In this document: positions 9,808 through 12,834 of the stretch, in pieces | Position numbering within the stretch: the stretch's first letter is position 1 | How the letters are laid out: every line of letters begins with the position of its first letter | DNA from: Winogradskyella marina | GTDB taxonomy: Bacteria; Bacteroidota; Bacteroidia; Flavobacteriales; Flavobacteriaceae | Direction of reading: 5' to 3' | Assembly (NCBI RefSeq): GCF_015645385.1 | Contig: NZ_JADOET010000015.1 | Location: 1 to 64,000 of the forward strand | DNA length: 64,000 nt | Position numbers and translations under genes: made by a program | Notes under the pieces: model-generated | The model's input: the letters and a program-made list of their open reading frames with translations, nothing else | Told to the model about the DNA's origin: nothing | Databases searched by the model: none

Positions 9808-9838
9808 AAAAAAGTGACCGTTTCCGATCACTTTTTGT
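9808..9838 (-). terminator. Terminator of the SPFH operon
   Basis: Read on the minus strand: AAAAAGTGA, a short loop, TCACTTTTTT. The hairpin overlaps the last codons of the ribbon-helix-helix gene (stop at 9828-9830) and separates it from the DUF819 gene. Confidence 0.7.
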
Positions 9839-10007
9839 CTTTAGAATTATCTTTTTTCTTGGGTTGCCTATTATGTTCTTTGAGATACTGCATTAACATC
9901 CATTCTATCTGACCATTAGTGCTACGAAATTCATCTGAAGCCCATTTTTCAATGGCTTTCAGCATATCTTCATTCATTCGTAGTGCAAAAGCTTTCTTTT
10001 TAGACAT
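9828..10007 (-). CDS. Arc-type ribbon-helix-helix protein (59 aa)
   Basis: 59 residues from the ATG at 10005-10007 to the TGA at 9828-9830. The beta strand KKAFALRM is followed by two helices (MLKAIEKWASDEF and NGQIEWMLMQYLKEH) and a Lys-rich tail; FRSTNGQIEWML is the classic Arc/MetJ-family signature. It is a predicted DNA-binding protein, last of four genes with SPFH, DUF4177 and a membrane protein, 10 bp after the third. From memory, Arc-domain genes often sit beside this SPFH family. It could autoregulate the operon or act in a membrane-linked complex; neither is shown. Confidence 0.88.
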   Translation of the reverse strand: MSKKKAFALRMNEDMLKAIEKWASDEFRSTNGQIEWMLMQYLKEHNRQPKKKDNSKDKK

Positions 10008-10679: not shown

Positions 10680-11540
10680 TTAATGGTTTAAAGTTCCGGT
10701 GTTTAAAACTGGAGAGGCATCTTTATCTCCACAAAGTACGACCATGAGATTACTCACCATAGCAGCTTTGCGCTCTTCATCTAATTCTACCACTTGCTTT
10801 TTATTAAGTTCGTCAATTGCCATTTCTACCATACTCACAGCGCCTTCAACAATTTTATGTCTAGCAGCAACAATCGCTGTAGCTTGTTGGCGTTTTAACA
10901 TGGCATTTGCTATTTCATTGGCATAAGCTAGGTAGCCAATTCTTGCTTCTAAAACTTCAATACCAGCAATGGTTAAGCGTTCGTCTATTTCTTTTTCTAA
11001 CGCATTACTAACTTCATTAACACTAGAACGTAAGGTAATATCTTCGTCAACACCTTCATCTGCAAAATTATCATAAGGATACATACTCGCTAATTTACGA
11101 ACAGCGGCATCGGTTTGTACACGTACAAAATTTTCATAATTATCGACATCAAATGCGGCTTTGTAGGTGTTATGAACACGCCAAACTAAGATGGTACTGA
11201 TCATAATTGGGTTTCCTAATTTATCATTCACTTTTAAGCGTTCGCTATCAAAATTGCTTGCTCTTAGTGAGATTTTTCGTTTAGTGTAAAACGGATTCAC
11301 CCAGTAAAAGCCATTCTTTTTAACGGTTCCAACATATTTACCAAATAATAGTAAAACTCTTGAGCCATTAGGTTGTACCATTAAAAACCCAAAGGCTAAA
11401 ATTAATGCTGCTACAATACCAAATATTGACCAACCTGTTTCTGTAATTGGAATTAATGCAATACTGCCAAAGAACAATATTAAAAATAAAAATAGCATTA
11501 GATAGCCATTTGCTGGGACGATGATTTTCTCTTCTTTCAT
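10680..11540 (-). CDS. SPFH/Band 7 domain membrane protein
   Basis: 286 residues. Two N-terminal membrane helices (about 13-32 and 36-55) are followed by a full SPFH domain: GTVKKNGFYWVNPFY, then NPIMISTILVWRV, then the coiled-coil part LEKEIDERLTIAGIEVLEARI. It ends with the subfamily tail SNLMVVLCGDKDASPV. Stomatin/prohibitin-like proteins form membrane-associated oligomeric rings or microdomains. First gene of a four-gene operon (SPFH, DUF4177, PH-like, RHH). No clear -7 box was found upstream. Its partner set differs from the NfeD-linked SPFH proteins. Confidence 0.93.
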   Translation of the reverse strand: MKEEKIIVPANGYLMLFLFLILFFGSIALIPITETGWSIFGIVAALILAFGFLMVQPNGSRVLLLFGKYVGTVKKNGFYWVNPFYTKRKISLRASNFDSERLKVNDKLGNPIMISTILVWRVHNTYKAAFDVDNYENFVRVQTDAAVRKLASMYPYDNFADEGVDEDITLRSSVNEVSNALEKEIDERLTIAGIEVLEARIGYLAYANEIANAMLKRQQATAIVAARHKIVEGAVSMVEMAIDELNKKQVVELDEERKAAMVSNLMVVLCGDKDASPVLNTGTLNH

Positions 11541-11683
11541 GATTTAAAAAATTTAATTGGTTAATTATCGTTTCAAATCAATATGATATTAAAATGATAT
11601 CATAAAGATGTGATTTAATTTATTAGTATGCAAATAGAATTTTTTGTTACAGTATTAATAAAAGAAATAAAAAAAACAAAGTT

Positions 11684-11699
11684 TGGCACAGGGTTTGCT
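11684..11699 (+). promoter_or_regulatory. Sigma-54 (RpoN) promoter candidate
   Basis: TGGCACAGGGTTTGCT matches the -24/-12 consensus TGGCACG-N4-TTGCW at all but one position and has the diagnostic GG-N10-GC spacing. The predicted transcription start is about 11710, exactly where a perfect hairpin begins. A 10-bp palindrome ATGATATCAT at 11594-11603, about 90 bp upstream, could be an enhancer site for an RpoN activator (inference). Confidence 0.65.
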
Positions 11700-11709
11700 T
11701 AATATTAAT

Positions 11710-11815
11710 TGTAATGATTATTACAACTGTTACATTCTAGTAACAGAACTACAAAGTCGTAACATTACATTGGTTGGTTAGTTAGAAAAAGCATCTCGTG
11801 GTTGGGATGCTTTTC
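11710..11815 (+). ncRNA. Candidate sigma-54-driven small RNA
   Basis: Predicted 105-nt transcript from the sigma-54 promoter to the first terminator. It begins with two consecutive perfect stem-loops: TTGTAAT-GATT-ATTACAA (11709-11726) and CTGTTAC-ATTCTA-GTAACAG (11727-11746). A 38-nt unpaired stretch follows (11747-11784), then the terminator. No ORF longer than a few codons is present. It lies between two minus-strand genes, so it is not the leader of a downstream gene. If the first terminator leaks, the RNA would extend to about 11884. Confidence 0.55.
11785..11815 (+). terminator. Terminator 1 of the candidate sRNA
   Basis: AAAAAGCATC, a short loop, GGATGCTTTT. It shares its upstream arm (AAAAAGCATCTC) with the next terminator, so the two look like a duplication. 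Confidence 0.75.
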
Positions 11816-11838
11816 ATTAGTGTTTAGTTAGTTAAGTG

Positions 11839-11884
11839 AAAAAAGCATCTCATTCCTATACATTTTAGGCGAGATGCTTTTTTA
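11839..11884. terminator. Bidirectional terminator
   Basis: AAAAAAGCATCTC pairs with GAGATGCTTTTTT across a 19-nt loop, symmetrical for both strands. It ends the hydrolase transcript (minus strand, stop at 11908) and backs up the sRNA terminator on the plus strand. Confidence 0.85.
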
Positions 11885-11907
11885 TTTGATGAATTTTAAA
11901 GAATGGG

Positions 11908-12834
11908 TTAAGACGCTATAAACTTCGTTATTCCTGTTATAAGTTCTGGTGAAATAGATCTAAACGATTCGTTATATGATTTTGAATTTTCTAAATCATC
12001 ACCTTCAATTTCAAAAAGGACGTGATTCATATTTTCTATAAGTAGTAATTCCGCTGTTTTATTAGCGTCTTTTAGTACTTCAGCTTCACTAACTGAAACT
12101 TGAAGGTCTTTTGTGCCATTAATAATAAGAATTGGCATGTTTAATTCTTTTATAATTTCAGAGGGATTATGAGACATCCAATTGATCATAAATGGTTGCA
12201 AATCGGCATTAAACATGGATGCTAAGGCAACTGGGAAATCAGTTGTAGTTTTACCTTCTTTTAGACTATTAACAACACGTTTGGTTTCTTCATTAAACAT
12301 TGGTGCCGTTTTAGCCACTTGTTCTATAATAACATCTCCTATGTTATTACCAGCTCCAGCGAGCGAAATAAAACCGTCTGCCTTGTCTTTTGCGGAGAGC
12401 ATTCCGACTAAACTGCCTTGACTGTGCCCAATAATATATATCTTATTATAAGTGCCTTTTACTTTAAAGTAATCTAATACATCTGAGGCATCACTCACAA
12501 AATCATCGAACATAATATCTTTATCTACGTTGTTTTGATGAATTTGTTTTACTATTCGTTTGTCAAACCTAAAGGTAGCAATACCATTGTGTGTAAGTCC
12601 TTCTGCTAACTTTTTTAAGGAATTATTTTTCAGGAAATTTTGATTACCATTTCTATTTGTTGGACCAGAGCCTGCTATAATAATGGCTAAATTAGGTTGG
12701 TCATTGTCTTGAGGTGCAAGCAATGTGCCATCTATCCATTTAGAAATAGATATATCTTCTTCGGTATATGTTTTTTCTTGGCTAAGTCCAAGACTGCTAA
12801 CTAATGATAAAGCGAGAATTAAAAAGAATTTCAT
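11908..12834 (-). CDS. Secreted alpha/beta hydrolase (S33-type)
   Basis: 308 residues from the ATG at 12834, chosen because it opens with a signal peptide (about 1-18, cleavage after LGLS); an upstream in-frame ATG would add 21 unlikely residues. The fold is alpha/beta hydrolase: oxyanion segment AIIIAGSGPTNRNG, nucleophile elbow GHSQGS, acid in NGTKDLQVS, and catalytic His in MNHVLFE. It resembles serine-aminopeptidase/acylglycerol-lipase-like esterases of unknown substrate. Single gene followed by a strong terminator. Confidence 0.87.
   Translation of the reverse strand: MKFFLILALSLVSSLGLSQEKTYTEEDISISKWIDGTLLAPQDNDQPNLAIIIAGSGPTNRNGNQNFLKNNSLKKLAEGLTHNGIATFRFDKRIVKQIHQNNVDKDIMFDDFVSDASDVLDYFKVKGTYNKIYIIGHSQGSLVGMLSAKDKADGFISLAGAGNNIGDVIIEQVAKTAPMFNEETKRVVNSLKEGKTTTDFPVALASMFNADLQPFMINWMSHNPSEIIKELNMPILIINGTKDLQVSVSEAEVLKDANKTAELLLIENMNHVLFEIEGDDLENSKSYNESFRSISPELITGITKFIAS

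Follow-up and report, generated by a model that had tools for sequence, protein, structure and literature searches.

The locus described here lies in the window, by which we mean the whole 64-kb stretch of Winogradskyella DNA that was analysed, and it is flanked on both sides by genes of the minus strand, as the preliminary description of this DNA had stated. The row of minus-strand genes to its left encodes an SPFH/Band_7 protein (PF01145 by Pfam match; 10680-11540, start at 11540), a DUF4177 protein, a protein without a Pfam match, an Arc-like DNA-binding protein (9828-10007, in the same gene row as SPFH) and a DUF819 protein, and the right neighbour is an alpha/beta hydrolase gene. Between them, on the plus strand, we predict a small RNA of ~105 nt (11709-11814), whose start is inferred from a promoter box of the sigma-54 (-24/-12) type at 11683-11698 and whose end is inferred from an intrinsic terminator. 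The prediction is based on conservation and covariation, with no transcript data. The predicted transcript consists, in this order, of a structured 5' domain (11711-11768), a stretch of constant sequence, TTGGTTGGTTAGTTAG (11770-11785), and a terminator hairpin with a T run (11787-11814). The parts of the gene named in the preliminary description are all present in the sequence, including the terminator, which is found as AAAAGCATCTCG...GGGATGCTTTT; the stretch at 11770-11785, which turned out to be the most constant part of the RNA, is absent from that description.

No open reading frame of at least 50 residues overlaps 11700-11815, in agreement with what had been claimed, and a protein-coding explanation of the locus is rejected on this ground. 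Identity with a known Rfam family was also rejected: at gathering thresholds the window yielded one tRNA only, a lax scan of 11600-11920 gave nothing above gathering, and 14 loci of other genera yielded four tRNAs and one Flavo-1 element ~4 kb from the RNA, the RNA itself being unmatched throughout. The gene has the properties of an intergenic small RNA gene in that it is stand-alone, terminated, structured, non-coding and conserved, while its transcription is itself a prediction.

A 191-base query detected the locus in 31 of 37 Winogradskyella genomes, with E-values of 2.4e-8 or lower; in 23 genomes from other families within the order, no match was better than 2.4e-4. The tallies for the genus given below rest on the 30 best of the 31 Winogradskyella matches. 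The promoter, the structure and the terminator are kept in these relatives, so that the locus withstands the check on conservation that had been proposed, with a correction to the architecture of the hairpins that is set out below.

The promoter box, TTGGCACAGGGTTTGC (TTGGCAC-AGGGT-TTGC, 11683-11698), has the form GG-N10-GC and is the sole exact TTGGCAC-N5-TTGC in the 64 kb on either strand, which upholds the -24/-12 box that had been claimed. With up to one mismatch, the window has 4 matches, against 0.70 expected in shuffles. The inferred transcript start (11709-11710) lies about twelve bases past the box. All 30 Winogradskyella homologues have a TGGC-type box in the same place, 85-89 nt before the constant stretch. 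Their -24 element reads TTGGCAC in 27 cases, TTGGCAT in two and GTGGCAC in one, and their -12 element TTGC in nine, TTGT in 20 and TTGA in one; judged from the sequences alone, this drift of the -12 element is what most weakens the sigma-54 reading, while the spacing and the -24 element are nearly fixed. Outside the genus, TGGCAY-N5-TTG precedes 24 of the 27 best matches of a covariance model that starts downstream of the promoter and excludes the box. The box stands 62-96 nt ahead of the stretch in these loci, it is lacking in three (L053, L060 and L061), and shuffled upstream regions gave it in 0 of 5400 trials. The base that follows TGGCAY was left free in the query and is a purine in 81 of 81 boxes among the matches listed (G in 53, A in 28). 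In the classic sigma-54 consensus, too, a purine follows the TGGCAC core, with the same GG/G spacing.

The host genome (3.98 Mb) contains one rpoN gene, whose absence would have refuted the preliminary description. The sigma-54 interaction domain has seven matches in this genome. Two of them are strong (E 1.5e-67 and 3.3e-71), and the remaining five, at 37 bits or below, are presumed to be other AAA+ proteins. One of the two strong activators has no receiver domain and lies in an apparent miaB-activator-lptE-secG-groES-groEL neighbourhood. The other has a receiver domain and lies near grpE-dnaJ. Both (L142 and L143) are thus found near chaperone genes; the activator domains and LptE were confirmed by domain search, and the other gene names of these neighbourhoods were read by eye. 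As no more than a weak box (TTGGCATAATTTTCGA) is present in the leader of groES, a link of sigma-54 to chaperone genes is not shown in this genome. With a box of fixed spacing, and with rpoN and an enhancer-binding protein in the genome, the locus qualifies as a putative sigma-54 transcription unit. We regard sigma-54-driven transcription of the RNA as supported, and both its expression and its dependence on sigma-54 remain predictions.

The whole RNA folds better than its shuffles, with z -3.70 and one shuffle in 200 reaching the same level. Two hairpins had been proposed for its 5' part. The second, GTTAC/GTAAC at 11729-11744, is confirmed as a conserved helix, P2 (11729-11733 with 11740-11744). 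The first, TGTAAT/ATTACA at 11710-11725, does exist and belongs to the minimum-energy fold of this strain, but we reject it as a conserved element on pair counts: 84.4% of its cells are paired in the alignment, two of its six pairs are unpaired in 12 and 14 of the 30 homologues, and one pair is changed on both sides (48 of 500 shuffles). An alternative stem between columns 6-11 and 58-63 is paired in 100% of cells. The conserved 5' domain therefore comprises a long-range stem, P1 (11711-11716 with 11763-11768), which encloses the second hairpin and is supported by covariation, P1b (11723-11727 with 11756-11760) and P2. Together with the terminator, these helices have 96.4% of cells paired in the alignment of the 30 homologues (A2), and 13 of their 28 pairs are changed on both sides, a count that 0 of 500 shuffles reached. 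The terminator alone contributes 12 pairs, six of them changed on both sides, with 98.1% of cells paired. Without it, seven of 16 pairs are changed on both sides, a count reached by 4 of 500 shuffles, and 95.2% of cells are paired; for further pair types the alignment does not exceed its shuffles (73 of 500). P1b is not an independent prediction, since it was added by eye after the alignment had been seen; P1, P2 and the terminator were recovered by RNAalifold unaided. As the two-hairpin fold is still the energy minimum in this strain, the strain may use it. The constant stretch is unpaired in the conserved fold, and it is partly paired in the minimum-energy fold of this strain, with a mean unpaired probability of 0.6.

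Beyond the genus, covariance model R1 matches 213 of 349 genomes of the family at E ≤0.01, in 155 of 237 genera, and, with the box found before 24 of the 27 best non-genus matches, the covariance search that had been suggested as a check comes out in favour of the RNA. The E-values of R1 are rough, and some matches are not RNA genes of the same kind; those at L053 and L060, for example, lie behind coding sequence. The strict pattern of box plus stretch is found in 76 of the 349 genomes and 55 of the 237 genera, and its reversed control gave no match in the same 349 genomes. Other families of the order were covered by DNA similarity only (the 23 genomes above), not by the model or the strict pattern. 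In named genomes at least 114 stretches were counted, and among the matches listed 76 of 80 loci come from records titled as Flavobacteriaceae or Bacteroidia. Four of 86 stretches (from Aliivibrio, Providencia, Limosilactobacillus and a Bacilli MAG) were dropped from the tallies and judged to be chance matches, as they lie outside the Bacteroidota and their sequence looks coding, with no ORF test made; stretch L363 is also coding-looking and was kept.

The last 14 bases of the stretch, GGTTGGTTAGTTAG, are exact in 28 of the 30 genus homologues and one base off in the other two. The 5' domains vary between genera, with a loop like GTGGTTAC in 44 of 82 stretches among the matches listed (by a loose pattern), and folding of an alignment of 40 of the 82 (A3) recovered the terminator alone. 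The invariance of the stretch in A3 is by construction, because an exact match to the stretch, together with the loop pattern, was the criterion for including these 40. Tandem RNAs, with two to four copies per locus, occur in eight loci that were hand-picked for neighbouring matches, and 18 of their 20 copies have a box of their own.

The stretch is not confined to stand-alone RNA genes. Searching 41 genomes of the family, we found 77 copies of TTTGGTTGGTTAG in the 27 genomes that carry it, against 19 for the reversed control, and 63 of the 77 lie outside open reading frames of either strand. Sixteen copies have a box 50-140 nt upstream, as in the stand-alone type, and 22 lie behind a gene that is itself preceded by a box; the two classes together comprise 37 copies, and 40 copies belong to neither. 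As background, the box occurs in ~1% of 90-nt windows of the same DNA. An open reading frame ends less than 120 nt upstream of 41 copies, and clustering of these reading frames gave one family of 20, which encodes a secreted protein of ~400 residues (its signal peptide judged by eye) and ends 3-19 nt before the stretch. A box of the sigma-54 type precedes all 20 of these genes and both members of a lipoprotein-like family with the stretch, compared with three of 142 other reading frames of the same loci. None of the remaining 19 stretch-carrying reading frames has a box. The genome studied here has its own copy of the secreted-protein gene with the stretch on contig C5 (L168:750-2009; ~420 residues), with a sigma-54 box ahead; its product has no NCBIfam or Pfam match, and its homologues show the arrangement of box, gene and stretch in 19 of the 41 genomes. 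On contig C8, the same genome has a lipoprotein gene with a box and a variant of the stretch, TTGGTTGGTTATTTAG. Since fumarase-like (3 of 3) and ClpB-like genes (named by eye) carry the stretch without a box, it is not exclusive to sigma-54 transcripts.

Two further occurrences were noted. An orphan copy in the genome studied here (TTTTTGGTTGGTTATT plus terminator; L154, C78 near 63088) has no visible TGGCAY box; the hairpin ahead of it has a GTGGTTA loop, like that seen in RNAs from other genera. At L262 (G083), the stretch and terminator follow immediately on the gene of a protein of 161 residues, which matches DUF4890 below threshold (27.0 bits, cut-off 29.7) and may be periplasmic and chaperone-like.

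How the stretch might act is suggested by the divergent neighbour of the RNA. Among the 50 gene leaders of the window, that of SPFH forms the best duplex with the stretch UUGGUUGGUUAGUUAG, with 15 contiguous pairs, three of them G-U, and -15.2 kcal/mol. The predicted pairing site, UAAUUAACCAAUUAA (11553-11567, minus strand), lies 13-27 nt before the AUG, and we infer that a duplex at this position would hinder ribosome binding. For the SPFH leaders of 30 Winogradskyella genomes, the mean energy is -14.05 kcal/mol, against -7.08 (sd 1.35) for shuffled stretches, none of 300 being as low. In other genera, 22 SPFH leaders have a mean of -7.33 kcal/mol, compared with -7.16 for the shuffles, of which 117 of 300 are as low. 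Conserved complementarity of the stretch to an mRNA leader beyond chance is thus found in Winogradskyella only. Being related, the 30 leaders are not 30 independent cases, and seven of them depart from the pattern of the site. An unanchored alignment of 29 leaders (L015 was left out, its leader being unrelated) shows the site as a conserved block within a variable stretch, with some changes that break pairs. The pairing-preserving changes in a column table of 23 leaders are by construction, because the anchor pattern varies only at four C/T positions. SPFH adjoins the RNA divergently in 33 of 82 stretches among the matches listed. We would like to point out that, since no such pairing with SPFH is seen in other genera, it cannot account for a stretch that is constant throughout the family.

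Candidates for a family-wide target were sought by complementarity. The 16-nt complement with up to three mismatches is not in excess genome-wide (86 sites against 94 for the reversed control). The complement before an ATG was found in 165 of 349 family genomes, against 69 for a shuffled control, but this search is confounded, since 15 of 30 loci have the box and are the RNA read backwards. Real ORF starts were returned at one of the 30 complement loci and at three of 20 further hand-picked sites. A family-wide target by perfect complement before an ATG is not established. Some single sites are kept as leads only: five genes of other genera have a perfect complement 6-19 nt before the ATG (L234, L239, L244, L285 and L293, of which L234 and L293 look related by eye), and CTAATCAACCAACCAA lies 3 nt before the ATG of a gene at G000:C11:482171.

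We propose that the locus encodes a ~105-nt trans-acting, base-pairing small RNA of the sigma-54 regulon, a reading that we hold to be probable though far from secure, and in which expression, sigma-54 dependence and repression are predictions. An enhancer-binding protein that senses envelope or protein-folding stress would turn the RNA on; that this is the activator of the miaB-lptE-secG-groESL neighbourhood is a guess. The stretch would then cover the ribosome-binding region of target mRNAs and lower their translation without Hfq, both steps being inferred. Hfq (PF17209) was found in none of 40 genomes (the genome studied here, 24 of the genus and 15 of other families), compared with five of 14 in a control set. 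On the mRNAs of the secreted proteins, the same stretch could add the same pairing activity, either as released 3'UTR-derived RNAs or in place. The post-transcriptional control of genes in Bacteroidota has been little explored, and an RNA found throughout a family, with a fixed promoter, a fixed stretch and an adjoining candidate target, would offer a test case for a base-pairing RNA without Hfq.

Several known systems resemble the proposed one in part. The enterobacterial envelope-stress RNAs RybB, MicA, MicL and CpxQ pair near ribosome-binding sites, CpxQ being derived from an mRNA 3' end, and they depend on Hfq and on sigma-E or Cpx. The RNA described here differs in having a sigma-54 box, no Hfq found, and a stretch that is common to RNA genes and mRNAs. 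In Proteobacteria, the small RNA genes Qrr, CrcZ/CrcY and GlmY/GlmZ have -24/-12 promoters and are in some cases multi-copy; their sequences are unrelated to that of our RNA, which has no Rfam family match. In Flavobacterium psychrophilum there is a putative regulatory RNA, Rfp36 (TSS 840245). It is preceded by the -24/-12 sigma-54 motif SM4, which also stands before chaperone, protease and gliding genes (PMC9723704, as far as its text was available). Rfp36 shares the type of promoter and the bacterial family with the RNA described here, homology is unestablished, and the available text of PMC9723704 gives no function for it. The statement in the preliminary description that no such RNA is known in flavobacteria was therefore too strong. 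A role in envelope or protein stress is plausible by analogy only, from the genes that SM4 precedes in F. psychrophilum. According to PMC9723704, Rfp18 is a conserved flavobacterial small RNA that is predicted to pair with mRNAs and whose deletion changed two metalloprotease mRNAs; it is not in the SM4 selection as far as this was available, and its pairing region is reported to be a third stem-loop. PMC9723704 was the only paper on flavobacterial small RNAs with sigma-54 promoters that our literature searches found, which is no proof of absence from print.

As the chief rival reading, the stretch could instead be the site of an RNA-binding protein, with a sigma-54-controlled RNA that draws this protein off the mRNAs sharing the stretch. 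CsrB-type RNAs and CrcZ draw proteins away from mRNAs in this manner. The same sense sequence next to a terminator, in the RNA and in mRNAs with a sigma-54 box, is no less compatible with a protein-binding site than with a seed, and a protein sponge would also be in keeping with a stretch that is nearly invariant while the 5' domains differ, with the tandem copies and with the lack of a genome-wide excess of complements. We nevertheless consider it unlikely, though well worth keeping in mind: each RNA has a single copy of the stretch, in the window and in the relatives inspected, whereas RNAs of the CsrB/CrcZ type have several, and the complementarity of the Winogradskyella SPFH leaders, far beyond that of shuffles, tips the balance to base pairing. 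As this pairing is seen in one genus and the stretch is constant in the family, it is conceivable that base pairing and protein binding are both true.

Taking base pairing as the preferred reading, the occurrence of the stretch in the RNA and at the end of messages with a sigma-54 box, together with its complementarity to the start of the SPFH message, suggests a shared gene-silencing tag. More tentatively, and with less than even confidence, we put forward that UUGGUUGGUUAGU plus terminator is a transferable 3' tag of the sigma-54 regulon in Flavobacteriaceae, which ends both stand-alone small RNAs, whether single or tandem and with varying 5' domains, and secreted-protein mRNAs, and to which lineages recruit targets through the evolution of complementary leaders (SPFH in Winogradskyella) without Hfq. 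If true, this would be a regulon with a seed from multiple sources, the same pairing sequence being supplied by many transcripts that depend on one sigma factor. A 3' stretch common to an RNA and to mRNAs with a sigma-54 box would be an unusual means of distributing a single regulatory sequence among the members of a regulon.

That the stretch is a 3'-end element only, aiding termination or protecting the 3' end in an RNA without a regulatory partner, seems to us improbable. Its position directly before terminators in both RNA genes and mRNAs, and its presence behind genes without a sigma-54 box, such as the fumarase-like ones (3 of 3 without a box), are what such an element would show, but it would leave unexplained why the RNA has its own sigma-54 promoter and a covarying 5' domain, why the stretch goes with sigma-54 genes (20 of 20 and 2 of 2, against 3 of 142), and why SPFH leaders are complementary to it. 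We give very little credence to a real RNA that is not sigma-54-dependent, with the conserved TTTGGCAC...TTTG pair read by another sigma factor, for although the -12 GC reads GT in 20 of the 30 genus homologues, the GG/G spacing and the TGGCAC core are fixed, a purine comes next in 81 of 81 boxes among the matches listed, rpoN is present in the genome, and the TAnnTTTG box of the flavobacterial primary sigma factor, as given in the part of PMC9723704 available, is absent at the locus.

Two minor features of the surrounding DNA may be added. Between the RNA and the minus-strand hydrolase gene there is a second terminator-like hairpin (11838-11882) with nearly the same stem (AAAAAGCATCTC/GAGATGCTTTTT), which may have a role for the hydrolase gene. 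The SPFH leader contains, at 11569-11618 on the minus strand, a block TATCTTTATGATATCATTTTAATATCA with TGATATCA palindromes. This block lies upstream of the pairing site, is strongly conserved in the 29 Winogradskyella leaders, recurs in varied form in other genera, and may be the SPFH promoter or an operator.
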